Position numbers and translations under genes: made by a program. A stretch of DNA of 64,000 nt from Spiractinospora alimapuensis (GTDB lineage Bacteria; Actinomycetota; Actinomycetes; Streptosporangiales; Streptosporangiaceae). Numbering within the stretch: the first letter of the stretch is position 1; every line of letters begins with the position of its first letter. The stretch lies in contig NZ_CP072467.1 of the NCBI RefSeq assembly GCF_018437505.1, positions 868,001-932,000 on the forward strand, in the 5' to 3' direction. Of the stretch, positions 14,446-54,844 are shown in pieces. Below the pieces are notes generated by a model. The model ran no database searches and had not been told where the DNA came from. It saw nothing but the letters and a program-made list of their open reading frames with translations.

Positions 14446-14654
14446 GACACTCGTGCCAGGATCTGGTGGCGAATCCGCACAAATTCCCGCACCGAATAGC
14501 GGATGGGGGCCATTCGGTGCTCGGTACCCCACTCCGGGAGCGGGCGCCGGGCCGGAACCGGGTGCGGTGGACGCGCGCCGACCTGGCCCCTCGCCACCGA
14601 GTGGGCGCCAGCCTGTGATACCCATAAGTCCGACTCTTGACAGAAAGGAGGACG

Positions 14655-16187
14655 ATGCCCGAGTCGTCGCCCCCAGTGTCCCGTCCGGGGACCGCGCGTG
14701 CCCTCCTGTGGACCGCTCTCTCCGTCATCCTTCCGGGTTCCGCGCATCTGCGGGCCGGGAAGCGCCGCGCCGGTACCGCGCTGATCGTCGGGTACGTCGT
14801 CCTTCTCGTCGCCGCCGGAGTCGCCGCCTACCTCATGGGCGACGCCACACGCGCCGCTCGGTTGGCCCTGCGCCCGAACGTCCTGCTCGCCCTGGGCGGG
14901 TCGGCCGTGGTGCTGGCCCTGCTGTGGTGCACGGTCGTCGTCCACTCCTACGTCCTGCTGCGGCCCGAACGCAGTGGCGTTCTCGCCCGCCTCACCTCGG
15001 TGGTCGTCGTCGCCGCGCTGTGCCTCACCGTCGCCGCGCCGGCCGCGGCGACCCTGCGCGGCACCTACATCGCGCACGATCGCCTCACCTCGATCTTCGG
15101 GGCGGACGCGCCCGACCATCCGTCGTCCTCCGAGGATCCGACCGCGGTGTGGGGCGACCGGGACCGGGTCTCCATGCTGCTGATCGGCAGCGACGGTGGG
15201 GACAACCGCTACGGGGTGCGCACCGACAGCATGATGGTCGCCAACATCGACGTCGAGCACGGCGACGTGGTGCTGATCGGTCTGCCGCGAAACCTGCAGA
15301 ACGTGCCGTTCCCGGAGGACTCCGAACTCGCCGAGCTCTACCCCGAGCCCACCGGCTTCGACCAACTGCTGCAGGACGTGTACCAGGTCGTCGAGGAGGA
15401 TCCCGAGCTCGCGGTGACCCCGGGAGTGCCCAACCCCGCGGCCGACACCCTCAAGGACACGATCGGCTACGCGATCGGTCTGGACGTCGACTACTACGCC
15501 ATGGTCGACATGCAGGGGTTCGAGGACCTGATCGACGCGATCGGCGGGGTGCGGATCCGGATCGAGGACGAGATTCCCTGGGGCCATCGGGGTGACGTCC
15601 TGGAGCCGGGTGTCCAACAGCTCACCGGCCAGCAGTCCCTGTGGTACGTGCGCTCCCGTATCGGCAGCGACGACTACACGCGGATGGGACGGCAGGGGTG
15701 CCTGATCCAGGCGGTCGCCGAGCAGGTCGACCCCTGGACCGTCGTCACGAGCTTCCAGGACCTCGCGGACGCGGCCGAGGCGACCCTGGAGACCGACGTC
15801 CCCCTGGCCTTGGTGAGCAACTTCGTCGACCTGGCGGAACTCGTCCCGCAGGGGTCCATGCGCACGCTGCAGCTATCGCCACCGCAGGTGTCGACGGCCT
15901 ACCCGGACTGGGAGGAGGTCCGGGAGATGGTGGCCGAGGCGGTACAGGAGCAGGAAGACGCCCAGGCCGCGGCCGAAGAGGACGCCACCTCGACCCCTGA
16001 CGCCACCGAGACCGGCGCGGCCGACGACGACGCCCCCGACGAGGACGCGGACACCTCCGAGGAGGGCGCCGAGGACGAGGAGTCCACGGAGTGGCAGGAC
16101 TGGAGCGGCTCTCCCAGTGCCTCCCCCACCACACCGGGCCGTCAGGTGGGCGACGAACCGGCGTCCCTGGACGAGATCTGCCCGTAG
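14655..16187 (+). CDS. LytR-CpsA-Psr (LCP) family cell-wall glycopolymer ligase
   Basis: 510-residue membrane-anchored enzyme that transfers lipid-linked glycopolymers (teichoic acid or arabinogalactan type) to peptidoglycan, outside the membrane. ATG 14655 follows a perfect AAAGGAGG. Three to four hydrophobic segments occupy residues about 20-140; the LCP domain follows (LLIGSDGGDNRYGVRTDSMMVANID, LIGLPRNLQNVP, LDVDYYAMVDMQGFEDLIDAIGGV, LWYVRSRIGSDDYTRMGRQ). Conserved Arg and Asp residues that bind the pyrophosphate of the lipid are present. The tail (about residues 425-510) is very acidic and Ser/Thr/Pro-rich. More transmembrane segments than the usual single one point to the actinobacterial multi-span subtype. 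Confidence 0.88.
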   Translation: MPESSPPVSRPGTARALLWTALSVILPGSAHLRAGKRRAGTALIVGYVVLLVAAGVAAYLMGDATRAARLALRPNVLLALGGSAVVLALLWCTVVVHSYVLLRPERSGVLARLTSVVVVAALCLTVAAPAAATLRGTYIAHDRLTSIFGADAPDHPSSSEDPTAVWGDRDRVSMLLIGSDGGDNRYGVRTDSMMVANIDVEHGDVVLIGLPRNLQNVPFPEDSELAELYPEPTGFDQLLQDVYQVVEEDPELAVTPGVPNPAADTLKDTIGYAIGLDVDYYAMVDMQGFEDLIDAIGGVRIRIEDEIPWGHRGDVLEPGVQQLTGQQSLWYVRSRIGSDDYTRMGRQGCLIQAVAEQVDPWTVVTSFQDLADAAEATLETDVPLALVSNFVDLAELVPQGSMRTLQLSPPQVSTAYPDWEEVREMVAEAVQEQEDAQAAAEEDATSTPDATETGAADDDAPDEDADTSEEGAEDEESTEWQDWSGSPSASPTTPGRQVGDEPASLDEICP

Positions 16188-20504: not shown

Positions 20505-20657
20505 GTCCGGCGCCGACGCCGACCCCGGCGGTGTGTGCCCGCACCTGGACCTCGATCGATCCGGACACTGCCTGACCGGCCAGGGGGCGTGGTCACGCGC
20601 TGTTCACCGGCTGCTAGGTTCGTCTCTGCAAGCTGGTCATCCGTTGGAGAGGAACTC

Positions 20658-21770
20658 GTGCGGCCACGATTCGGGCGATCCCGCGCATTGGGCGGGGCCG
20701 CGCTCACCAGCGTCCTGCTCGCCGGCTGCGGAGGCGACGCGGCGGTACCGCCAGAGGACGCGCCCCCCGTCCCCGACGAGCTGGCCTGCTCCGAGGGCAC
20801 GATCAGCGGAGCGGGTTCCAGCGCGCAGGAGCTCGCGATGCAGGTGTGGATCGCGGGGTACCAGCAGGAGTGCGACGACGCGACCATCAACTACGACCCG
20901 ATCGGTTCGGGCGGCGGACGCAGCCAATTCATCGACGGCGCCGTCACGTTCGCCGGCACCGACGCCGCGCTGCACGGTGAGGAGACCGAGGAAGCGCGCG
21001 ACCGCTGCGCGGGCGCCACTCCCGTCAACCTCCCCGCCTTCGCCGTTCCCATCGCGGTCGTCTATCACGTGGACGGCATCGACACGGGGCTGAACCTCTC
21101 GCCCGAGACCATCGCCGGGATGTTCAACCAGGACATCACCGCCTGGGACGATCCCGCCATCGCCGCGGACAACCCCGACCTCGACCTCCCCGACACCGCC
21201 ATCCAGCCGGTGAGCCGCTCCGACGAGTCGGGAACCACCGAGAACTTCACCGAGTACCTCCACGCGGCCGCCGGCGAGGCCTGGCCGCACGACGCCAGCG
21301 GCCAGTGGCCGATCGAGCCCGTGGAGGCGGGGCAGGGCAACTCCGGTGTCGCCTCCGCCGTGGAGGGCGGCGACGGCATGATCGGCTACGTGGAGGTCTC
21401 CCACGCCGGTGAGCTCGACGCCGCGAACGTCGGTGTGGGTGACGCGTTCGTCGCTCCGTCCCCGGAAGCGGCCGGCCGGGTCGTGGCCGAGGCCACCCCA
21501 CGTGAGGGCAACGAGGAACACGACCTCGCGCTCGACCTGGACTACGGCACCACCGCCGCGGACACCTACCCCGTCGTGCTCATCGCCTACGAGGTCGCCT
21601 GCCTCGCCTACGACGACGCCGAGGAGGTCGACCTGCTCACCGGCTTCCTGTCCTACGTCGTGAGCGAGGAGGGCCAACGCGCCGCCTCGGCCGAGACGGG
21701 GTCGGCGATCCTGCCGGAGAGCGTCCGCGCGGACGTGCGGGCGGTCGTCGACGTCATCACCGTCGACTGA
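20658..21770 (+). CDS. pstS: phosphate ABC transporter substrate-binding lipoprotein PstS
   Basis: 370 residues; catches phosphate outside the membrane for PstCAB. GTG 20658 sits behind GGAGAGGA. A lipoprotein signal ends in LLAGC at about residue 25. Binding-site segments are GAGSSAQELAMQVW, DPIGSGGGRSQFIDG, FAGTDAAL and SRSDESGTTENFTEYL, all typical of PstS. No pstC, pstA, pstB or phoU follows within the window (the next gene is on the other strand), so the gene is solitary here, as some extra PstS copies are. Control by PhoP is common for such genes but no clear box was found. Confidence 0.88.
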   Translation: MRPRFGRSRALGGAALTSVLLAGCGGDAAVPPEDAPPVPDELACSEGTISGAGSSAQELAMQVWIAGYQQECDDATINYDPIGSGGGRSQFIDGAVTFAGTDAALHGEETEEARDRCAGATPVNLPAFAVPIAVVYHVDGIDTGLNLSPETIAGMFNQDITAWDDPAIAADNPDLDLPDTAIQPVSRSDESGTTENFTEYLHAAAGEAWPHDASGQWPIEPVEAGQGNSGVASAVEGGDGMIGYVEVSHAGELDAANVGVGDAFVAPSPEAAGRVVAEATPREGNEEHDLALDLDYGTTAADTYPVVLIAYEVACLAYDDAEEVDLLTGFLSYVVSEEGQRAASAETGSAILPESVRADVRAVVDVITVD

Positions 21771-42950: not shown

Positions 42951-43205
42951 CGGGGGCTACGACAAGCCACCCATGACCAGTAGCTCCATCACGTACGTCA
43001 CCACTGTCCGGAACTAGCGTCGCCCCCGCGCATTCGCACTGTAGGACCGCTGGCGCGCTTGGTGGGTGCCGCTCGGAATGTGCGCGGGCGTTCCTGGGAG
43101 CCCCGCCGCGGTACGGGCGCTGGCGCGACCACACCGCTCCGATCTGACTGTCGTGCTCCGCGCCGTGGTCGCCTGGGTGAGGGGGTCGGCCCGGTGGGGG
43201 CGCGA

Positions 43206-43249
43206 TTGCCTGTGCTGTGGGCCGTTTTCCTATCATGGCGGCGCGCCAT
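43206..43249 (+). promoter_or_regulatory. candidate promoter and operator of the NACHT gene
   Basis: TTGCCT (43206-43211) and TATCAT (43231-43236) are spaced 19 bases apart. ATGGCG-GCG-CGCCAT (43235-43249) is a perfect inverted repeat overlapping the -10 element. The start codon follows about 40 bases later. The rest of the 335-base gap after array 2 holds no supported gene. Confidence 0.4.
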
Positions 43250-43286
43250 CGCTCCGTTGGCAGCGTCGAACCGGGGAGGACCCCGC

Positions 43287-46200
43287 ATGTCTGGCTCACG
43301 ATCCGCGCTGTCCTACGCCGAGGCGCTCCGGGTGCTCGGGGGCGGGGACTCGGCGGCCGCGGCGTTCGCGGAACGGGTCGCGGAGGGGGCGCTGGAACTG
43401 CTCGGGGTGCCCGGGTTGGGTGGGCTGCGGGGACTGATCGTCAAACACGGGCGGGAGCAGCTCGGCCGGCTCACGGGGACGCTCCGGGGCGCGGGGCGGT
43501 TGGACCGGTCCGACCGGCTCGCGGCGGCGCACGCGATCATCGTCGTCGAAGCGTACTTCGAGGCGTTGGCCGAGGACCCCCCGGAGGGGATCCCGATGGA
43601 GTTCTCCGCGGCGGAGAAGTCCGCGTTGGGCAGCGTGGAGTCCGTTCCGGACGGCCGTTCGGCATTGCTGCGCCAACTCGCCTCCGCCCCGATCCCCCTC
43701 CCGTCGCCCTCCCGTTCCCCGGAGGAGAACCGGCTCGCGGTCCAGGAGTATCTCGACACCACGTTGGTCGCGGCGACTCGCAGGTTCGTGCGGGGACTGG
43801 CGTGGTGGGACGAGGCGGACGAGACCCGTCGCGGCGCGTTGCTGGACGCGCTCGGTCGGGTCACCGGGCGGGCCATGACCCGCTACGCCGAGTCCTACCG
43901 ACAGCTCGTGGCCGAGCACGCGGAGTTCGCCGCGTGGAACGCGGGTGTCGAACACGCCGCGACGCGTCACCGGGTGGAAACCGGCCTCGCCCAGCTCGGC
44001 GGGTTGCTGGCCCGCATGAGCACCGGTCCCACCGCCGGCGAGCGCCGCTCCGTGCTCGCCGCCCGCCACCGCGCCGTCCTGACTCGCCCCATCCTGGACA
44101 CCCCCGAGATCCCGCGCGGGTTCGTCCTGCCGACGTTGGAGGAGAGCTACATCAACCCCCGGGGGCGCGTGGGGCAGGCCGTCCGGGACGTGCAGCCCGG
44201 TTCGGACGCGTGGGCCGAGGACAGTCCGCTCCGGGACGACATCCAGTCCGTGTTGGCGGGGGAGCTCACCGGTCCCGACGCGGTCGACCGGCCGCTGGTG
44301 CTGCTGGGCCATCCGGGGTCGGGCAAGTCACTGCTCACCCAGGTGCTCGCGGCGCGGCTTCCGGCGGAGGACTTCCTTCCCATCCGGGTCACCCTGCGCG
44401 ACGTGCCGGCCGACGCACCGGTGCGGGAGCAGATCGAACACGCGCTGCGAGAGGCGATCGGGGAGCCGATGTCCTGGGCGGACGTCGCCCGCTCGGCGGA
44501 GGGGGCCCTTCCGGTCGTGCTGCTGGACGGTTTCGACGAGCTGCTCCAAGCCGCGGGGAAGGACCAGGGCGACTATCTGGAGCGGGTCCGGGAGTTCCAG
44601 CGTCGGGAGGCGGAACTGGGACGTCCCCTCGCCGCGGTGGTCACCTCCCGGACCGTGGTGGGCGATCGGGTGCGGTTCCCCGACCGGTGCCCCGTCATCC
44701 GACTGGAGCCCCTCACCAGTGCCCAGATTCGCCGTGGGCTCGCGGTGTGGAACGACGCGAACCCCACCGCCGACCCGCTGACGCTCGACCACCTGACCCC
44801 CGTTCGTGAGCTCGCCGAACAGCCCCTCATGTTGCAAATGCTGATGCTCTACGACGTGGAGGGCGCCGCGCTGCGCACGGGTACCGAACTCAGCCGTAGT
44901 GGCCTCTACACCGAGCTGCTGACCGCCTTCGCCGCGCGCGAGGTGCGCCGCGCTCACTCGCACCTGGTGGCCGCGGAGACCGCCCGAGCGGTCGAGGAGG
45001 AGCTGCGTCAGTTGGAGGTCGCCGCTCTCGGGATGTTCCTGCGCCAGGGACAGCGCATCACGGCCGACCAGTTGGACACCGATCTCGCCGCGCTCCGCGC
45101 CGAACCGCCCCAGCCGGCCCAGGCGGCCCAGGCGGCCCCGTCACCGACCGGAGGGGGCCCCGACGCGCGGCGCGTCCTCGGCCGCTTCTTCTTCGTCAAC
45201 GTCTCCCGGGCCAACGACCAGCACCACGAACGGTTGGTGTACGAGTTCCTGCACGCCACGTTCGGTGAGTTCCTCGTGGCACGGGCGGTCGTGAGCGCGG
45301 TCGTGGACCTGGCGACCGCCCGCGCGGAGTCGGCCCGGGGACGGCTCCCCACACCCCTGGACGACGGCCCGCTCTACGCGCTGTGCTCCTTCGGGGTACT
45401 GGCGCGCCGCTCCCCGGTCGTGGAGTTCGTGGAGGAACTCCTCGCGCATCGCTTCGGCTCCGCCCTGGTACGCCGGTCCGACGTCCACGCGCTGCTGGTG
45501 GAATTGTTCCGCGCCGCCCCCTACCCGCACCCGGCACGTTCCCGAGGCGGCTACGAGCCCATCCGACTGCCCGTCACCTCCCGACAGGCCCGCTATACCG
45601 CGAACCTGCTCTGCCTGCTGGTATTGGTGTCCCCGGAGCCGATCGACATCGCCGAGCTGTTCCCCGACGCCGAGGACTCCCGAGCAGCGTGGCGGGGGCA
45701 GGCGGGCCAGTGGCTGGACCTGCCCTGGGACGGCTGGCACGGCATGCTGGACACGGTCCGGCTGCGCCACACGGCCGCGGACGACGGCTCGTTGGTGAGC
45801 GTGGTGGAGCGAGAGCGCGGCGACCCGCTCAACGTCGGCGAGTGTCTGGGTCTGGAGATGAGGCACGCCGGCGACATCGACATCGTGGACCCACGCGCCA
45901 TCGAGGTCCCTGCGGCGGGAATCACCGGCCGGCTCCTGCGCTCGATCGCGCTGCGCGTCAACGGTACCGCCGCCCGCACCACACTGACGCTGCTGCCCTA
46001 TCTCCGCCACGTCTCCGACCTGCTCACCGAGTGGTTCGACGACGCCGTGGACGCGGGGGTCCTGTGGTCGCAGACCCACGACATCCTGGAGCTCCGACTC
46101 GCGCCTCCCAGCACCGACCCCCGGGGACGGCTCACCCGCTACGAGCGACTCCTGGCCACCCGTACCCTCGGTCGGATCGAACTGCTGACGCTGCGTCAGG

Positions 46201-46646
46201 CCACCGAGGACCTCGCGGTACTGAAACACCGACCGTCTCCTCCTCCGACCGGCGACACCGAGTCAACGATGGACACCGACCTCTACCGGAGTTTCCTTCG
46301 GTCGACGGTGCTGCGGTACCTGGACCAGCTCCACCGACGTGTCGAGGGTCCGGTCCTCCATCCTCGCGAGGTGCGCCCGGTGCTGGACCATCTCGCCTCC
46401 CACCTACCGCAGAAGGACTCCCCCGCCGTCCACCACGTGCGAGATCGCCTGGCGAAACAGGCGACACCCCCGCAGCGCCCCGCGCCCGTCGCGGCGGCGG
46501 GTGACACGCCCGGCCCCGGTGCCGGTCCACCGCGCGGCGCCACCGGCGGCGGGCGAGTGGATCCGACCCTCAGCCGGAGGAACGAGCACGCGCGCCAGTT
46601 CGGCTCCGGCGGCGGCACCAAGGGCCTACACGGAAGTGCCGGCTGA
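43287..46646 (+). CDS. NACHT-domain STAND NTPase, probable anti-phage sensor
   Basis: 1119 residues from ATG 43287 behind GGGGAGGA. The N-terminal helical domain (about 1-110: GVPGLGGLRGLIVKHGREQLGRL, AAAHAIIVVEAYFEAL) resembles the NACHT-associated N-terminal helical domains of actinobacteria. The NTPase core has Walker A LLGHPGSGKSLLTQVL near 341, Walker B VVLLDGFDEL near 410 and the VVTSRTV sensor near 450, followed by a winged-helix part (EQPLMLQMLMLYDVEG) and FLHATFGEFLVARAVV typical of NACHT. From about 700 to 1020 comes a long helical sensor region, and a Pro/Gly-rich tail. Bacterial NACHT proteins of this kind sense phage components and kill or arrest the cell. Its place next to two CRISPR arrays strengthens a defence role; the effector is not a recognisable enzyme domain. 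Confidence 0.85.
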   Translation: MSGSRSALSYAEALRVLGGGDSAAAAFAERVAEGALELLGVPGLGGLRGLIVKHGREQLGRLTGTLRGAGRLDRSDRLAAAHAIIVVEAYFEALAEDPPEGIPMEFSAAEKSALGSVESVPDGRSALLRQLASAPIPLPSPSRSPEENRLAVQEYLDTTLVAATRRFVRGLAWWDEADETRRGALLDALGRVTGRAMTRYAESYRQLVAEHAEFAAWNAGVEHAATRHRVETGLAQLGGLLARMSTGPTAGERRSVLAARHRAVLTRPILDTPEIPRGFVLPTLEESYINPRGRVGQAVRDVQPGSDAWAEDSPLRDDIQSVLAGELTGPDAVDRPLVLLGHPGSGKSLLTQVLAARLPAEDFLPIRVTLRDVPADAPVREQIEHALREAIGEPMSWADVARSAEGALPVVLLDGFDELLQAAGKDQGDYLERVREFQRREAELGRPLAAVVTSRTVVGDRVRFPDRCPVIRLEPLTSAQIRRGLAVWNDANPTADPLTLDHLTPVRELAEQPLMLQMLMLYDVEGAALRTGTELSRSGLYTELLTAFAAREVRRAHSHLVAAETARAVEEELRQLEVAALGMFLRQGQRITADQLDTDLAALRAEPPQPAQAAQAAPSPTGGGPDARRVLGRFFFVNVSRANDQHHERLVYEFLHATFGEFLVARAVVSAVVDLATARAESARGRLPTPLDDGPLYALCSFGVLARRSPVVEFVEELLAHRFGSALVRRSDVHALLVELFRAAPYPHPARSRGGYEPIRLPVTSRQARYTANLLCLLVLVSPEPIDIAELFPDAEDSRAAWRGQAGQWLDLPWDGWHGMLDTVRLRHTAADDGSLVSVVERERGDPLNVGECLGLEMRHAGDIDIVDPRAIEVPAAGITGRLLRSIALRVNGTAARTTLTLLPYLRHVSDLLTEWFDDAVDAGVLWSQTHDILELRLAPPSTDPRGRLTRYERLLATRTLGRIELLTLRQATEDLAVLKHRPSPPPTGDTESTMDTDLYRSFLRSTVLRYLDQLHRRVEGPVLHPREVRPVLDHLASHLPQKDSPAVHHVRDRLAKQATPPQRPAPVAAAGDTPGPGAGPPRGATGGGRVDPTLSRRNEHARQFGSGGGTKGLHGSAG

Positions 46647-46741: not shown

Positions 46742-47650
46742 ATGCCAAAATCGTTCACGATGACGCAACAGCCCTACATTCTGGTGGTCAACTCCCGGGT
46801 TGTGCACCGCCCCCTGTTCCTGATCGGGGCACCGCACTCGGGAGTCGAGGTACTGGCCCGCGCCCTGGGCCACTGCGCGGGTCTCTACCTCACGTCCGGT
46901 CGACCCGCCGTGCTGCAGGCGATCTACGCCCTGGCCCGCCGCCCCTCGATCACGCACGGGCGCGCGGCGGGCACCGCCGCCATGTTGCGGGACGCCTTCG
47001 CCACGGCGTGGCAGCTCACCACCGACAGTTGCCCGGACTGCTCGCCCCGGGCGCGACCCGGCACCGCACCGTGGGACGTCGACGCCACCCTGTGCCGGCA
47101 TGGGCGCGGGATGGAGGCGTTCGGTGACGCCAGCCCGGACCTGCTGTACTCGGCCGAGGCCCTCGCGCTGACCTTTCCCGACGCCCGCTTCGTCCAGGTG
47201 ATCCGCGACGGGCGGGACGCCGTCGCCTCGATGCTGGGCGACAGCCAGATGATGTCGTGGTTCCGTACCGACGTCGTGGCTCGGCTGGACGAACTCCCCC
47301 ACCCGTTCTTCGGGATCGAGACCGAGGAGGACAAGGCGGGTTACGGAGAGCTGTCCAACGCCGCGCGGTGCGCCCTGCGCTGGCGCAGCGCGATCCGCCT
47401 CTCCGCCCGGCTGCGCAGTGAGCTGGCCGAGGACCGGATGATCACGATCCGCTACGAGGAGATCCCGGGCAACGAGGTCGCGGTCGCGGAGCGACTGACG
47501 AGCTTCGTCGGGCGGGGGGTCTCCGCCTCGGAGCTCATGACCGACACCAGCTACCGGATCGGCATGTGGCGACGCGGACTCGACCGAGATCAGTACGCCC
47601 ATGTCCGCACCACCGCGGGGACGGAACTCGCGCGGCTCGGCTACACCTGA
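46742..47650 (+). CDS. sulfotransferase family protein
   Basis: 302 residues from ATG 46742 (other starts at 46760 or 46784 are possible; none has a good ribosome site). The P-loop-like PAPS site reads FLIGAPHSGVEVLARALG near residue 28 and the 3'-phosphate site VIRDGRDAVASMLGD near 157, both typical of bacterial carbohydrate or small-molecule sulfotransferases; YEEI in the later part supports this. The acceptor is not known. It stands between the NACHT gene and the phosphonate genes and may modify the same glycan, but no operon link is visible. Confidence 0.78.
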   Translation: MPKSFTMTQQPYILVVNSRVVHRPLFLIGAPHSGVEVLARALGHCAGLYLTSGRPAVLQAIYALARRPSITHGRAAGTAAMLRDAFATAWQLTTDSCPDCSPRARPGTAPWDVDATLCRHGRGMEAFGDASPDLLYSAEALALTFPDARFVQVIRDGRDAVASMLGDSQMMSWFRTDVVARLDELPHPFFGIETEEDKAGYGELSNAARCALRWRSAIRLSARLRSELAEDRMITIRYEEIPGNEVAVAERLTSFVGRGVSASELMTDTSYRIGMWRRGLDRDQYAHVRTTAGTELARLGYT

Positions 47651-47785
47651 GAACAGCACGTCACGGGGTCGCGGGTGCCGACGGTGACGCACCGGACCAA
47701 CAAGCTGGAATTCCAGCGTGGCTCCGGCCCGCCCCTCGGCACTCTGGACGGATGCATACTCGCGTCGACGAGAGGACGGGCATCC

Positions 47786-48166
47786 GTGATCCCCCACACA
47801 TCCCTCACTCACGCCCAACCGCCCCGACCCCACCCCGCGATCGTCGTCTCCTCTCCCCCGTCGGCCCCACTGTCCCATTTCGGCCAACTCGCCCAGGCGG
47901 TCGCCGAGACCCTCGCGACTCGACGCGACCCCCGTCAACTCCATCCCCTGATGACACCGGCCGCGTTCGAGTGTCTCCAGGACAACATCGGCGTCTACGG
48001 TTGGCGCACCACACCACGCCTACGGCGTCTGCGCTCCCTCTCCCCCCGCCCAGGCGCCCTCGAGGTCTGCGCCGTCGTGCAGTGCGGCGGACGGGTCCGG
48101 GCGCTCGCCCTGCGCTTCGAGGGTGTCGAGCGGGCCTGGCTCTGCTGCTACCTACGCACCGCCTGA
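47786..48166 (+). CDS. Rv3235-family protein
   Basis: 126 residues from GTG 47786 (GAGAGGACGGG upstream); the longer frame from 47675 is unlike the family. The conserved C-terminal domain reads FGQLAQAVAETLATRRDPRQLHPLM, RLRRLRSLSPRPGALEVCAVVQCGGRVRALALRFEGVE, WLCCYLRTA. Members are small, widely conserved in actinobacteria and of unknown function. Upstream residues are Pro/His-rich and probably disordered. Confidence 0.7.
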   Translation: MIPHTSLTHAQPPRPHPAIVVSSPPSAPLSHFGQLAQAVAETLATRRDPRQLHPLMTPAAFECLQDNIGVYGWRTTPRLRRLRSLSPRPGALEVCAVVQCGGRVRALALRFEGVERAWLCCYLRTA

Positions 48167-48533: not shown

Positions 48534-50843
48534 GTGCAGGGTGATCAAAGCCGCGCCGGCCGACCTCGGTTAATCCGCGGCACCACGACAGAAGCCAGAT
48601 TCCTTTCTGGAGTAGACTTGACCCGCCCTGCGACCTTCGTGGCTCGACGCTCCGCCGCTGTTTGTCGGTTACTTCGCTGCTGGCCTGCGGCTGAATACAT
48701 TTATCAGACCGCAATTCACCGTGGCGCGGCCGACGCTGGATTGCATTTCCGACTGGGGCAGGTTCGCGAACACCGCGGAAATCCCGCAGGCGCGCTCGAC
48801 GCCTATACGACGGCAATTCAGCTCGACTCCTCCGCCGCGATCCACCATTTCCGTATGGGGCGCGCGCTGGAACAGCTCGACCGACTCGCCGAGGCCGAAG
48901 AGGCTTATGCGGAGGCGCTGCTGCGGGATTCCGCCGACACCGTGGCCCTGCGTCAGCGCGCGAAACTCCGGGAGAAGCGGAAGAATTTCCAGGCCGCCGC
49001 CGAGGACTACGAGCGGGCGCTGGAACTGGCGCCGCACCGCAAGGACCTGCACCTCGCCCTGGCCAACGCGCTGGAGAAGGCCTGCGCGCCGTTGCGCGCC
49101 GTCGACGTCTACTCCGGACTGCGCGAACGCTTCGGGGACGACGCCAAGGTGCGCCGCAAACTCGCGATCGCCTACGACAAGTCCGGTGACTGGCAGGCGG
49201 CGCGCGACATGCTCAGTCACGTCATCGCCGAACGCCCCGCGGACAGGGACGCGCACTACCGGCTCGCCGGCGTCATCGACCGGTTGGGGCGGATCCCGTT
49301 CGTACTGCGGGAAGGTGAGGTCCTCCACGTCACCTCCTCCGAACCGGACGACCTGGGCAGCCGGGCGATGTCCCACTTCGAGACCTCGCTGGCGGGGCAG
49401 CCCAAGAAGGTGACCTGGCTACACCGGGCCGCGGCCCGTCTGGCCCGGCGCAAGACGCTGTACAAGGTCGCCATGCGGGTCCCCATCGTGGCGACGCGCC
49501 TGCACCGTCGTGTGTCCCGCCCGGAGACCCGGTTGCGGCGGCTGTACGAGCTCGGCCAGATGTACGAGCGTGCGGGGAAGCTCGCGGAGGCGGCGCGGCA
49601 CTACCGGTCCGCCGTGGCCGGCCTGGAGAGCGTCGACGCCATCTGGGTGCACAAGGCCGAGCCGGCGTGGCGGTTCCGCCTGGCCTACGTCGAGACGCGG
49701 CTGGGGGCCAACCTCGCCGAGGCAACGGCCGACGACGCCGCGCCCGACGCCGACGACGCCCGGCTCCTGCGTGAGGCCCACCCCGACACCGAGGCCTCCT
49801 CGATGTTGGTACGCGGACAGCAGCCGGGCGGCTTCTTCGACGCCACGATCGTGGACGTCGGCCTGCGGGTCGAGGGTTTCCTGCTGCCGACCGACGGTGA
49901 CGACACGGTCGACATCCACCTCGACGGCGCGCCGGTGAAGAGTGTCGCCACCAACCCCAAGGCGTGGCTGCGTCCCTTCAGTTTCGACCTGTCCCACAAG
50001 GTCCTGGCCCAACTGCCCACGACGTCGCGCCTCACCCTGTCCTGCGGTGACCGCCCACTGGTCAGCACCCGGGGCAGCACGGTCATGGCGTTGACCGTGC
50101 CCGACGGCTCCAGTCGCCTCCCCGAACTGATGGACGCCGGCTACACCATCAGCAAGAAGGGTGTGCTGGCCGCCCCGCCGGAGGAGATCTCCGACCGGCA
50201 GCTCCGGTACCTCAAGTCCTACGGCGAGGCCAAGGACAAGTTCGAGGAGGTTCTGGGCAAGAAACTGTTCCTGCTGTACGGGACGCTGCTGGGCTGCTAC
50301 CGGGACCGGGCCTTCATCGCCGGGGACGACGACTTCGACGTCGCCTACATCTCCGACGCCACCGACCCGGTGGAGCTGAAGTCGGAACTGCAGGACCACG
50401 CTCTGGCGCTGCTGGCCGCCGGATACGACATCAGCATCACGGTCACCGGGCGCCTGTTCAAGGTTCGCCTGGGCCGGACCTGGCTGGACGTCAACGCGTT
50501 GTGGTTCTACGCCGACCGCGCCTGGGCGTTCGACGCCCACAACCTGAAGCGGTCACAGTTCGAACCGGTGTCCACCATGGAGTTCCTGGAACACGACGTC
50601 TACGTGCCGCGTGAGATCGAGGCGTTCCTGAGCGACAACTACGGCACCGACTGGCGTACACCCCAACCCGATTTTCGCTATTACCGCAGTGAAGAGGACC
50701 GTCGGATCCTGCGCCGTTCCTGGCTCACGCCCAGTGAGGCCCGGGAGTTCGCCCGCCTGTGCGCTCTGGAGCAGAGCCGCAACCCACGGGCCGGAACCTT
50801 CGTCGGTATCGGTGACCCCGCCGACACCGGGTTCAGCGTCTAG
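48534..50843 (+). CDS. TPR-LicD-type phosphotransferase, first gene of the phosphonate cluster
   Basis: About 769 residues. LicD proteins transfer phosphocholine or similar phospho-groups from a CDP or CMP donor to sugars. Residues about 55-260 contain several TPR units (AGLHFRLGQVREHRGNPAGALDAY, AIHHFRMGRALEQLDRLAEAEEAY, DLHLALANALEKA); a middle beta-rich part follows; the LicD-like nucleotidyltransferase core is near 575-605 (LFLLYGTLLGCYRDRAFIAGDDDFDVAYI), with the Asp residues that bind metal. GTG 48534 is only one choice; TTG 48618 after GGAG is another. The gene is 82 bases before pepM and directs the phosphonate to a polymer in my reading. Its N-terminal part is AT-richer than the rest. 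Confidence 0.75.
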   Translation: MQGDQSRAGRPRLIRGTTTEARFLSGVDLTRPATFVARRSAAVCRLLRCWPAAEYIYQTAIHRGAADAGLHFRLGQVREHRGNPAGALDAYTTAIQLDSSAAIHHFRMGRALEQLDRLAEAEEAYAEALLRDSADTVALRQRAKLREKRKNFQAAAEDYERALELAPHRKDLHLALANALEKACAPLRAVDVYSGLRERFGDDAKVRRKLAIAYDKSGDWQAARDMLSHVIAERPADRDAHYRLAGVIDRLGRIPFVLREGEVLHVTSSEPDDLGSRAMSHFETSLAGQPKKVTWLHRAAARLARRKTLYKVAMRVPIVATRLHRRVSRPETRLRRLYELGQMYERAGKLAEAARHYRSAVAGLESVDAIWVHKAEPAWRFRLAYVETRLGANLAEATADDAAPDADDARLLREAHPDTEASSMLVRGQQPGGFFDATIVDVGLRVEGFLLPTDGDDTVDIHLDGAPVKSVATNPKAWLRPFSFDLSHKVLAQLPTTSRLTLSCGDRPLVSTRGSTVMALTVPDGSSRLPELMDAGYTISKKGVLAAPPEEISDRQLRYLKSYGEAKDKFEEVLGKKLFLLYGTLLGCYRDRAFIAGDDDFDVAYISDATDPVELKSELQDHALALLAAGYDISITVTGRLFKVRLGRTWLDVNALWFYADRAWAFDAHNLKRSQFEPVSTMEFLEHDVYVPREIEAFLSDNYGTDWRTPQPDFRYYRSEEDRRILRRSWLTPSEAREFARLCALEQSRNPRAGTFVGIGDPADTGFSV

Positions 50844-50925
50844 GAACCGTTTCCCCCTCTCCCCCATTCCCGTCGTGACGTGACCACGTGGCGGCGGGAC
50901 AACCGGATATTTGGAGTGCAAGGAC

Positions 50926-52239
50926 ATGACAGAGCGACCGCAGGTCTACGTGGGCATGAGCGCAGACCTCATCCACCCGGGGCACATCAACATTCTGCGC
51001 GAGGCGAGCCAGCTCGGGGACGTCACCATCGGGCTCCTCACCGACGCCGCGATCGCCAGCTACAAGCGTCTCCCCCACATGTCCTACGAGCAGCGCAAGA
51101 CCGTGGTGGAGAACCTCGCCGGGGTCACCCGGGTCGTCGCCCAGGAGACGTTGGACTACGTCCCCAACCTGGAGAGCCTGCGTCCCGACTTCGTCGTGCA
51201 CGGCGACGACTGGAAGTCCGGGGTCCAGGAGCGCACCCGTGAGCGCGTGATCTCCGCCCTGGACCAGTGGGGCGGCAAGCTCGTCGAGGTCCCCTACACC
51301 CCGGGCATCTCCTCCACCCAGCTCAACTCCTCGGTCAAGCAGGTCGGCACCACGCCGGACGTGCGGCTCACTCGCCTGCGCCGGCTGCTCGACGCCAAGC
51401 CGATCACCCGCATCATCGAGGCGCACAGCGGCCTCACCGGGCTGATCATCGAGAGCACGAGCGTCAAGCGTGAGGACGGCAGCACCGTCGAGTTCGACGG
51501 CATGTGGTCCTCCTCCCTCACCGACTCCACCGCGCGCGGCAAGCCCGACATCGAGGCCGTGGACATCTCCTCCCGGCTGCAGATGGTCAACGAGCTGTTC
51601 GAGGTCACCACCAAGCCGCTGGTGTTCGACGGCGACACGGGGGGCAAGCCCGAACACTTCCCCTTCACCGTGCGCTCGTTGGAGCGGCTCGGCGTGTCCG
51701 CGGTCATCATCGAGGACAAGGAGGGGCTCAAGCGCAACTCCCTGTACGGAACGGACGTCGCCCAGACCCAGTCCAGCATCGAGGACTTCTCCAACCGCAT
51801 CGCGATCGGCAAGAAAGCCCAGATCACCGACGACTTCATGATCATCGCCCGGATCGAGAGCCTGATCCTGGAGAAGGGCATGGAGGACGCGGTCGCGCGC
51901 GCCGAGGCCTACATCGACGCCGGCGCCGACGGCATCATGATCCACAGCCGGCAGAAGACGCCCGACGAGGTCTTCGAGTTCTGCTCCCGCTTCAACAAGC
52001 TGCCCCGCCGCGTGCCGCTGATCGTGGTTCCCACCAGCTACCACCAGGTCACCGAGGCCGAGCTCGTCGACCACGGCGTGAACCTCGTGATCTACGCCAA
52101 CCACATGCTGCGTGCCGCCTACCCGCAGATGGCGAAGGTGGCCACGACGATCCTGGAGCACGGCCGCGCCTACGAAGCCGACCCGATGCTCGCCCCGATC
52201 AAGGACGCCCTCGCGATCGTTCCGGCGAACGAGTCATGA
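50926..52239 (+). CDS. pepM: nucleotidyltransferase-PEP phosphomutase fusion
   Basis: 437 residues from ATG 50926. Residues 1-130 form a CTP-type nucleotidyltransferase ([18 protein letters not shown] with HPGH at about 17-20, [13 protein letters not shown]). Residues about 150-437 form PEP mutase, which rearranges PEP to phosphonopyruvate; the family-defining [10 protein letters not shown] is near 262 and [13 protein letters not shown] and [15 protein letters not shown] follow. The fusion joins the first step of phosphonate synthesis to activation of a phosphonate as a CMP-ester. Overlaps the decarboxylase gene by ATGA. Confidence 0.93.
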
Positions 52240-53372
52240 TCGCGCCCAAGGAGTTCACCCAGGTCTGTGAGGAGCAGGGCATCACGCTCTTCACGGGCGT
52301 GCCCGACAGCCTGCTGAAGAATCTGTGCTCGCACGTGATGGCGGAGCTGCCCCGGGACCGGCACATCGTCGCCGCCAACGAGGGCGGTGCCGTCGGCATC
52401 GCCATGGGCCACTACCTGCGCACCGGCAAGCCGGCCCTGGTCTACCTGCAGAACTCGGGGTTCGGCAACATCGTCAACCCGCTGCTCTCGCTCGCCGACC
52501 CCGACGTGTACGGCGTGCCGATGCTGGTCGTCATCGGGTGGCGCGGCCAGCCGGGTGTGAAGGACGAGCCGCAGCACGTGAAGCAGGGCCGGATCATGGA
52601 GGCCGCGCTGGACGCGCTGGAGGTCCCGTGGTCGGTGCTCCCGAAGGACCCCGAGGACGCCGCGACGGCCGTCCGCCGGGCCGTGTCCGCGGCGGTGGAG
52701 CAGGGCGGCCCGTCGGTGCTCCTGGTGGAGAAGGGCACGTTCTCCGACGCCGCGACGTCGCAGGAGGCCCCCGCCTCGACGCTGCCCAGCCGGGAGGACG
52801 CCCTGATCGCCCTGGCGGACGCCGTGGGCGACCAGTCGGCCATCGTCTCGACGACGGGCATGCTCAGCCGGGAACTGTTCGAGTACCGCGAGCGCAGCGG
52901 CACCGACGGCAGTCGTGACTTCCTCACCGTGGGAGGTATGGGGCACGCCAGCGCCATCGCGTTCGGCCTGACGACCGGTGGCGACGACGAGGTCTGGTGC
53001 TTCGACGGCGACGGCGCGCTGCTCATGCACCTGGGCGGACTCGCGGTCATCGCCGACCACGCGCCGGACCGCTTCTTCCACGTCGTGTTCAACAACGGCG
53101 TCCACGACAGCGTCGGCGGTCAGCCGACCTCGATGGACGTCGTGGACACCGCGGCCACCGCGAAGGCGCTCGGGTACCGCTACGCCGCGTCGGTGAGCGA
53201 CCTGGCGGAGCTTCCCGACCGGGTCGCCGAGCTGCGAGCCCAGGGCGGCCCGAGCCTGCTTGAGCTGCGGGTGCGCCCCGGGAACCGGGCCGACATCGGG
53301 CGCCCCACCCGGACCCCACAGGAGAGCCGCGAGGCGTTCATGGCCGCACTCGGTGGAGGTGCCTCGGAATGA
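52236..53372 (+). CDS. ppd: phosphonopyruvate decarboxylase
   Basis: 378 residues. Thiamine-diphosphate enzyme that removes CO2 from phosphonopyruvate, giving phosphonoacetaldehyde and pulling the unfavourable mutase step. Signals are [12 protein letters not shown] at the start, [13 protein letters not shown] (the catalytic Glu region), [14 protein letters not shown], and the TPP/Mg motif [13 protein letters not shown] ending [12 protein letters not shown] near residue 290. Start ATG overlaps the pepM stop, and its own stop overlaps the dehydrogenase start, so the three enzymes are made as a unit. Confidence 0.95.
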
Positions 53373-54502
53373 CCCGCACCTGCTACGGTTTGGGGGCCGT
53401 GGACCAGCTCCCCCGCCTGGTCGAAGAGCTGGGTGGGCGCAGGGTCCTGCTGGTGTGCGGCGAACGTTCGTTCGCCGCGTCCGGCGCGGACACCATGCTC
53501 CCCGAGCTGCGGCGGCGGGCGGAGGTGCGCCGGTGGAGCTCCTTCGAGCCCAACACCAACGCGACGGACCTGCTCGCCGGACTCGGCATCGTCGAGGAGT
53601 TCCAGCCGGACACGGTGGTGGCGGTCGGTGGCGGCAGTGCGATGGACATGGCGAAGCTGCTGTGCGCCTTCCCTGACGCGCGCGACACGGAGGCGTTGCA
53701 CACCGCGATCCGAAGCGGGAAGCCCACGGCGCCCCGTGGGCCGCGTCTCGTCCTGGTTCCCACCACGAGCGGTTCCGGGTCGGAGGCCACGCACTTCGCC
53801 GTGGTGTACATCGGCACCGACAAGTACTCCATCGCCGCGCCCGGCCTGCTCCCGGACGTGACGGTGCTGGATCCCGCCCTGACCCTGAGCGGCTCGCCCT
53901 ACCAGCGGGCGACGTCCGGGATCGACGCGGTGTCCCAGGCCGTGGAGAGCCTGTGGGCCGTGGGTGGAACGGCGGAGAGCAGGGGCTTCGCCCGGCGTGC
54001 GCTGCGGGTGCTCCTCCCGGCGATCGAGGGTTTCGTCCACACCCCGGACACCGGGAACGCGCGGGCGATGGCGGTCGGGAGCCACCTGGCGGGCCGGGCC
54101 ATCAACGTGTCGAAGACGACGGCGGCCCACGCGCTGTCCTACGGTCTCACCAAGGGCTACGGGGTGAGCCACGGTCACGCGGTGGCGTTGACCCTCGGAC
54201 GGTTCGTGGAGGCGCACGCCAACGCCGTCGACGCCGACCTCCAGCCCGCCGTCGACGTCGAACGGCACCGGGACGCCATGTCCCGGGTGTTGGACGCGCT
54301 GGGCGCCGCGGACGGTGCCGAGGCCCGACGGCGATTCACGGAGCTGGGCGAACGCCTCGGTCTGTCCATGCGTCTGGACGAGGTGGGAGCCGACTCCGAG
54401 GAGCGCGTCCGCGCGCTCACCGCGAGCGTCAACACCGAACGTCTGGGCAACAACCCGGTGCGGTTCTCCGCGGAGGGACTGGTCGCGCTGCTGCGCGCCT
54501 GA
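53369..54502 (+). CDS. iron-type alcohol dehydrogenase, probable phosphonoacetaldehyde reductase
   Basis: 377 residues from ATG 53369. NAD(P)-dependent group III alcohol dehydrogenase: VAVGGGSAMDMAKLL near residue 93, VPTTSGSGSEATHFAVV near 133, and the metal ligands in GIDAVSQAVES and YGVSHGHAVALTL. Enzymes of this type (PhpC/FomC) reduce phosphonoacetaldehyde to 2-hydroxyethylphosphonate. With pepM and ppd it gives the route PEP to HEP, so HEP rather than aminoethylphosphonate is the expected product; no aminotransferase is present. Confidence 0.88.
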   Translation: MTRTCYGLGAVDQLPRLVEELGGRRVLLVCGERSFAASGADTMLPELRRRAEVRRWSSFEPNTNATDLLAGLGIVEEFQPDTVVAVGGGSAMDMAKLLCAFPDARDTEALHTAIRSGKPTAPRGPRLVLVPTTSGSGSEATHFAVVYIGTDKYSIAAPGLLPDVTVLDPALTLSGSPYQRATSGIDAVSQAVESLWAVGGTAESRGFARRALRVLLPAIEGFVHTPDTGNARAMAVGSHLAGRAINVSKTTAAHALSYGLTKGYGVSHGHAVALTLGRFVEAHANAVDADLQPAVDVERHRDAMSRVLDALGAADGAEARRRFTELGERLGLSMRLDEVGADSEERVRALTASVNTERLGNNPVRFSAEGLVALLRA

Positions 54503-54524
54503 CCCCAGCGAGGGACCGGACGGA

Positions 54525-54564
54525 CGTGCGGGGGCGGCACCCAGCGGGGTGCCGCCCCCGCACG
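54525..54564 (+). terminator. perfect terminator of the phosphonate operon
   Basis: CGTGCGGGGGCGGCACCC (54525-54542) and its exact complement (54547-54564) form an 18-bp stem with an AGCG loop, 22 bases after the dehydrogenase stop. Confidence 0.85.
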
Positions 54565-54844
54565 CGTGTGTGCCGCGGCCTGTCGCCGGCGGCGGTGTCC
54601 CCCTGTCGTCCACGCGACGCGAGACACGCCACACCCGTTCCCAGTGGGACCGGGCCCACGTCCTTCACGGGCGCGGTGACCGCGATCGTGCCCATCCGCG
54701 TTTTCCGCGACCGTCCGGAGGCCACGAACTCCCCGCGGGGACTCCCGCGACGGGGATGCCGACCGGCCTGGGGCGGACACGGCCGGCTCGACGATCCACC
54801 GGCCAGCTTCGCGCGGCCCCTCTCCCTTATGGACCGGGCGGGCC

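Follow-up and report, generated by a model that had tools for sequence, protein, structure and literature searches.

The 64,000-nucleotide stretch of the Spiractinospora alimapuensis genome analysed here (the window; bases 868001-932000 of a 5.86 Mb single-contig genome) carries a four-gene operon that probably constitutes a minimal phosphonyl-tailoring system, in which three enzymes make a cytidine monophosphate (CMP)-activated 2-hydroxyethylphosphonate (HEP) donor and a fourth protein, with tetratricopeptide repeats (TPR) and a LicD domain, transfers HEP to a surface polymer. The operon occupies 48618-54564 on the + strand, and its genes encode, in this order, the TPR-LicD protein, a cytidylyltransferase-phosphoenolpyruvate (PEP) mutase fusion, a phosphonopyruvate decarboxylase (Ppd) and an iron-family alcohol dehydrogenase (ADH). 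The last three, which are closely orthologous to characterised enzymes, would turn PEP into CMP-HEP. We infer that the TPR-LicD protein would then move HEP from CMP-HEP onto a hydroxyl of the polymer, giving a phosphonate ester, that the acceptor would be a polymer under assembly in the cytoplasm (an exopolysaccharide or wall teichoic acid), and that the TPR superhelix may dock the polymer or partner enzymes. The parts of the operon are as follows.

48618..50843, + strand: TPR-beta-LicD protein, 741 amino acids (aa), proposed CMP-HEP:polymer HEP transferase (TPR and LicD families over cut-off in Pfam)
50926..52239, + strand: predicted HEP cytidylyltransferase (about 50926-51375) fused to PEP mutase (about 51376-52236) (PF01467, PF13714, TIGR02320)
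52236..53372, + strand: phosphonopyruvate decarboxylase, Fom2-like (TIGR03297; thiamine pyrophosphate-enzyme N and C domains)
53369..54502, + strand: iron-family ADH, FomC-like phosphonoacetaldehyde reductase (PF00465/PF25137; 59% identical to FomC of locus L025)
54525..54564, + strand: terminator-like hairpin with 18-bp perfect arms, a 4-nt loop and no T run (fold energy -48.3 kcal/mol for 54519-54575)

A preliminary description of this DNA had listed the four genes in this order and a single orientation, with ATGA overlaps among the last three and a perfect hairpin behind them, and all of these are present: the overlaps are at 52236 (pepM/ppd) and 53369 (ppd/adh), and the hairpin arms are 54525-54542 and 54547-54564 (no T run lies 3' of them). 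The TPR-LicD gene ends 82 nt before the pepM ATG at 50926, with no overlap; TTG 50911 is an alternative start of the fusion gene. The TPR-LicD gene more likely starts at TTG 48618 than at GTG 48534, where the open reading frame (ORF) opens, because GGAG is found at 48609 and the N-terminus aligns with the start of the Glycomyces relatives.

Production of CMP-HEP is, as judged from sequence, the firmest part of our reading, because the trio is closely orthologous to the characterised Fom1, Fom2 and FomC, which convert PEP to 2-HEP-CMP (PMC8158854). The fusion protein has the Pfam domains CTP_transf_like (PF01467) and PEP_mutase (PF13714), scores 415 bits against the NCBIfam PEP mutase TIGR02320 (cut-off 320), and carries the motifs HPGH, ISST and EDKx5NS, which fits a Fom1-type HxGH/ISST nucleotidyltransferase placed N-terminal to PepM. 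The best Protein Data Bank match of its N-terminal domain is 5x3d (E 2.1e-68), a chain that agrees letter for letter, over the 69 residues compared, with the Fom1 N-terminus of the Streptomyces wedmorensis locus L025. Identities to the L025 trio are 78% in the nucleotidyltransferase, 78% in PepM, 61% in Ppd (Fom2) and 59% in the ADH (FomC; over 370 aa). By these likenesses the N-terminal domain is a HEP-cytidylyltransferase orthologue, in line with the earlier suggestion that it serves in HEP activation. Ppd scores 434 bits against TIGR03297 (cut-off 312.5). The ADH, which had been proposed to be of the FomC type, is so by its identity to FomC and falls far below the equivalog cut-off of PsrA (TIGR03405; 165.9 bits against 423.7). 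It has a D186/Q190/H254/H269 pattern that is common to the 12 ADHs of loci L016-L027, including those of the fosfomycin loci L025 and L026; the usual iron-ADH motif has His where these have Gln.

No PhnW-type aminotransferase is found over cut-off in the genome (three weak matches have 29-111 bits, cut-off 401), and 2-aminoethylphosphonate (AEP) was set aside as the product on this ground; a transaminase of another family could still supply it. Fom3, Fom4, FomD, FomA and FomB of L025 have no match at E 1e-3 in the window, the part of the genome searched for them, and because these later fosfomycin genes are without a match there, CMP-HEP is the predicted end product of the trio and HEP is likely the phosphonate of this locus. 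The preliminary statement that neither an aminotransferase nor phosphonate antibiotic genes accompany the operon thus stands for PhnW in the genome and for the fosfomycin tailoring genes in the window.

The first gene of the operon encodes the candidate transferase. Its LicD match (PF04991) has 28.8 bits (cut-off 22.6), the domain carries GTLLG and GDDDFD followed by a later Asp, and all 20 aligned sequences, the protein itself among them, have D570, D574 and D624. AlphaFold models of the full protein (pLDDT 82.7 with 8 aligned sequences and 87.5 with 20) have a predicted TPR superhelix at about 1-365, a beta domain at about 386-493 and the LicD domain after it. Hydrophobicity gives no membrane helix (maximum KD19 1.28), so the protein is predicted to be soluble, and its gene is the only LicD gene of the genome (LicD search up to E 1). 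Cps7C of Actinobacillus pleuropneumoniae is described as having an N-terminal TPR part and a C-terminal FKRP-like nucleotidyltransferase domain, as depending crucially on two aspartates, and as a polymerase that adds glycerol-3-phosphate from cytidine diphosphate (CDP)-glycerol onto a growing chain; the same paper finds that linker elongation requires the TPR domain of the capsule polymerase (PMC11666461), and in another polymerase, Cps1B, this domain serves oligomerisation and is dispensable for activity (PMC5974469). Cps7C and our protein, which we liken by description only, share the TPR N-terminus, a C-terminal domain of nucleotidyltransferase type (FKRP-like in Cps7C, LicD by Pfam in the window protein) and a cytidylyl-activated donor (a predicted one in the window protein), but Cps7C is 378 aa long and the portion of its description at hand mentions no beta domain. 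By analogy, TPR-LicD may take CMP-HEP as its donor, and its TPR part may handle the polymer or partner enzymes. HEP on a cell-surface polymer was the product suggested in the preliminary description, and the analysis supports that suggestion.

A search for the TPR-LicD architecture next to pepM in other genomes had been proposed beforehand, and it turned up relatives of the kind looked for. We examined the whole genomes of 10 of the 13 actinobacterial cassette loci fetched (L015, L020 and L023 were left out), and the whole TPR-beta-LicD architecture is present in four of these ten other genomes, always on the pepM contig and with 31-44% identity to the window protein. In Nonomuraea sediminis (L021), as in the window, a TPR-LicD gene lies directly 5' of pepM-ppd-adh on the same strand (20 bp from pepM; 44% identity) and PF13469 sulfotransferase genes are nearby; L021 differs in having a second TPR-LicD copy, two genes for proteins with glycosyltransferase family 2 (GT2) and TagF parts, and a CDP-alcohol phosphatidyltransferase. 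In Glycomyces sp. NRRL B-16210 (L022) and in Glycomyces paridis (L024) two copies run convergent to adh, and in the L016 genome a single copy lies about 11 kb from adh. Neither of the two fosfomycin genomes has any. A LicD hidden Markov model (HMM), built partly from the same loci in which it was counted, matches 20 of the best 80 loci described below, 8 of the 13 actinobacterial ones and neither of the two fosfomycin loci. Our literature search, which had most subscription papers outside its coverage, found no description of TPR-LicD in phosphonate loci.

Glycomyces sp. NRRL B-16210 (L022) is known from the literature as a phosphonoglycan strain, and the phosphonate of the Glycomyces phosphonoglycan is reportedly HEP. 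The phosphonoglycan cluster of NRRL B-16210 is listed in a table of PMC7375171, and Stackebrandtia nassauensis is called a producer of phosphonoglycans in PMC12723261. The L022 cluster has the same nucleotidyltransferase-PepM, Ppd, iron-family ADH order (identities 79/74, 71 and 64%) and TPR-LicD genes beside it that are 33 and 31% identical to the window protein. On the other hand, its convergent TPR-LicD genes are accompanied by a GT2-TagF gene and a membrane TagF-like gene, whereas in the window a single TPR-LicD gene precedes pepM and none of the scanned proteins is one of polymer synthesis. TagF/GT2 genes are usual in the loci examined and are, in our own reading, defining for a Glycomyces-type cluster. 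Because a Pfam scan of 41 window proteins (a part of its ORFs) shows no such polymer-assembly gene, we class the window locus as a phosphonyl-tailoring (Pnt) locus and not as a Glycomyces-type cluster. Two features given for Pnt loci are found in the window, a PepM with a fused nucleotidyltransferase and a LicD-like gene directly 5' (Rice 2019, PMC6697681). Pnt pathways and, by prediction, the window have in common that a phosphonate is activated with a cytidylyl group for use in surface tailoring, with LicD-like transferases nearby, but the assayed PntC is a PF12804 enzyme acting on AEP, whereas the window has PF01467 and, by prediction, HEP (PMC6697681). CMP-phosphonates have been proposed as donors for surface tailoring, and LicD-like phosphotransferases or glycosyltransferases have been noted in phosphonyl-tailoring neighbourhoods (Rice 2019, PMC6697681).

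Several observations weigh against HEP transfer by TPR-LicD. Its best PF04991 stretch spans only profile positions 8-34 of 227, and in fold searches of the full-length model with pLDDT 82.7 (Foldseek, VIA-align) TPR proteins filled the matches listed, among which there was no LicD/FKRP chain. The donor of Cps7C, the characterised enzyme of similar architecture, is CDP-glycerol and not a CMP-phosphonate. TPR-LicD is missing from six of the ten cassette genomes (two of them fosfomycin), and the four non-fosfomycin ones carry other LicD-family proteins (L017, L018, L027 and the genome of L019). No glycosyltransferase or TagF is present among the 41 scanned window proteins (not every ORF), unlike in L021 and L022, whose clusters include GT2-TagF proteins. 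Finally, a membrane TagF-like protein with weak TagF similarity adjoins pepM or TPR-LicD in L018, L019, L022, L024 and the contig of L016, and this protein could be the HEP transferase in the strains that carry it; it was found in 5 of the 86 sequences searched, which included the window's own locus:

L022:8008-9846, L018:8021-9835, L019:6222-7865, L024:8123-9808 and L128:2726-4450: membrane TagF-like protein (Glycomycetaceae and one Micromonosporaceae bin)

Some of these points would suit a rather unlikely alternative, in which the operon does make CMP-HEP, TPR-LicD is a teichoic acid transferase that uses a CDP-polyol (glycerol or ribitol), and another enzyme, for example a TagF-like one, uses the CMP-HEP. 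Cps7C is of the same two-domain kind and uses CDP-glycerol, the genome has matches to TagF (PF04464) at four places outside the window, and there are Glycomycetaceae loci with the membrane TagF-like gene 5' of pepM. Against this, TPR-LicD goes with the HEP cassette: a class-wide search (E 1e-15, two candidates scored per genome) gave matches in 6 of 393 other genomes, in the beta/LicD end only and at E 2.6e-24 or weaker, so that the TPR part was matched in none of the 393, among which teichoic acids should be common. At E 1e-4, neither the window nor any of the four TagF loci of the genome matches the membrane TagF-like protein.

Under our preferred reading, HEP transfer by TPR-LicD, the TagF matches at four places in the genome make wall teichoic acid a plausible acceptor. 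One of these matches (genome 2214308-2215394) is split into neighbouring pieces that lie in two frames, owing to either a frameshift or a sequencing error. A protein of the LytR_CpsA_Psr family (PF03816), which ties wall polymers to peptidoglycan, is encoded at 14637-16187, 32 kb 5' of the operon. A lipid acceptor seems to us quite improbable. In that case TPR-LicD, or a CDP-alcohol phosphatidyltransferase encoded elsewhere, would move HEP to diacylglycerol; the first protein of the operon does have a sub-threshold match to the diacylglycerol cholinephosphotransferase Mf1 (41 bits, cut-off 225), and PF01066 CDP-alcohol phosphatidyltransferase genes near pepM in L021 (14732-15523) and L019 (4653-5504) are a possible phosphonolipid branch in those strains. 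But no CDP-alcohol phosphatidyltransferase is among the 41 scanned window proteins, related loci have enzymes of glycan and teichoic acid type next to the cassette, and the Glycomyces product is a glycan according to the title of Yu 2014.

The CMP-HEP cassette itself is widespread. A scan of genome contigs gave 332 relatives of the fusion, and our locus counts use the best 80 of these 332. HxGH and EDKx5NS occur in one ORF in all 80, and at E 1e-20 Ppd is found in 78 and an iron-family ADH in 70 (several contigs are short), so the association of these genes is not due to chance. According to their record titles the 80 loci come from Actinomycetota, Bacteroidota, Pseudomonadota, Ignavibacteria, Spirochaetia, archaea and other groups. 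A fused nucleotidyltransferase is reported for about 60% of PEP mutases, with a figure of 23.6% for fusion to PF01467 (Rice 2019, PMC6697681). Within the window's own order the fusion is present in one of 297 genomes, this one, and in 7 others the match is essentially confined to the mutase part.

Two of the actinobacterial cassettes belong to fosfomycin clusters: L025 matches FomA and FomB above the cut-off and FomD below it, and each of the five L025 fosfomycin genes has a homologue in L026. In a midpoint-rooted tree of the fusion a single branch sets the actinobacterial cassettes and the window apart (14 rows, 100/99) and the fosfomycin pair is nested beside L021 (98/95). An outgroup-rooted tree of the concatenated proteins also unites the actinobacterial cassettes and the window (13 rows, 100/100) and makes fosfomycin sister to a group of ten non-fosfomycin cassettes, which has a support of 96/95, while L027 falls outside. 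The trees thus differ as to an origin of fosfomycin from inside the other actinobacterial cassettes, the first nesting the pair and the second placing it as a sister, and a single clade of the 11 non-fosfomycin actinobacterial rows is not rejected (approximately unbiased test, p 0.104). Both trees make fosfomycin a single twig within a wider cassette.

That the window operon belongs to a small-molecule phosphonate pathway such as that of fosfomycin, or is a truncated remnant of one, we regard as highly improbable. The window shares with the S. wedmorensis cluster the three enzymes (59-78% identical), their order and the predicted product 2-HEP-CMP, and the fusion tree nests the fosfomycin pair among its relatives, but the window has TPR-LicD in place of the five later genes. 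A fosfomycin remnant was rejected since none of the five matches the window. The operon is followed by the hairpin and then, on the opposite strand, by betaine-type ABC transporter genes, and the position of fosfomycin in the concatenated tree likewise argues against a small-molecule pathway.

Immediately 5' of the operon are two further genes.

46742..47650, + strand: sulfotransferase (PF13469), possible accessory gene (Pfam)
47675-48166: DUF6459 gene, between the sulfotransferase gene and the operon

The sulfotransferase is the only PF13469 match in the whole genome (E 0.001), and its gene lies beside the genome's only LicD gene, with its end 967 bp 5' of the start proposed for TPR-LicD. Genes for PF13469 proteins are found next to pepM in L016 (one) and L021 (two) as well, but the window protein is only 24% identical to that of L021 and is not a close relative. 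A sulfotransferase HMM made from four seeds matches 2 of the 80 loci, both of them seed loci, so we treat this gene only as a lead; as a fixed part of the locus it was rejected, the other 78 loci giving no match. Two L017 proteins look sulfotransferase-like by eye and have no Pfam match. The same literature search, with the same coverage, gave no description of sulfotransferases in phosphonoglycan loci.

The DUF6459 gene is conserved and present in a single copy in this genome. Nine stretches of relatives around DUF6459 were compared with the window; four align with its DUF6459 gene and three with gene 20535-21770, which encodes a phosphate-binding-type protein (PF12849), and none of the other listed window genes aligns with these nine. 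A further stretch, from around the transporter in a relative (L127), aligns with the transporter only. An empty insertion site of the operon was sought among these stretches, and no boundary could be drawn from them. In three of the nine, DUF6459 and the homologue of gene 20535-21770 are no more than about 2-6 kb apart; because the distance is 26 kb here, the comparison suggests that 20535-47650 is an insert-rich or rearranged stretch. A NACHT-type protein of 1195 aa with an NNH7 N-terminal domain (PF22738) is encoded at 43059-46646 and has no PADLOC match. The G+C content at third codon positions in the four operon genes (0.87-0.96) is near that of their neighbours (0.80-0.90), and the only low-GC stretch is 451 bp 5' of TPR-LicD (60% GC); a recent foreign origin was considered, and composition does not show such a transfer, even though no other genome of the order search has the fusion.

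The steps of phosphonyl tailoring after formation of the C-P bond have been called enigmatic (Rice 2019, PMC6697681), and the operon is probably a compact further locus of this kind with a clear candidate for the transferase step. A more speculative version, to which we give little credence, has TPR-LicD string HEP head to tail into a short poly(hydroxyethylphosphonate), as Cps7C/FKRP add each unit to the terminal hydroxyl of the one before; it is conceivable because HEP, unlike AEP, has a free hydroxyl, and if true it would yield a chain that resembles teichoic acid and has C-P bonds in the backbone, and the sulfotransferase encoded nearby might cap or decorate this chain. Since a whole CMP-HEP cassette is coupled here to one candidate transferase that is predicted to be soluble, the attachment step could be rebuilt in vitro with four proteins. 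Finally, because fused relatives occur in many phyla and the fosfomycin pair falls among the actinobacterial sequences in the tree, cytidylylation as a transient step of fosfomycin synthesis may be characteristic of a CMP-HEP cassette that is itself widespread.

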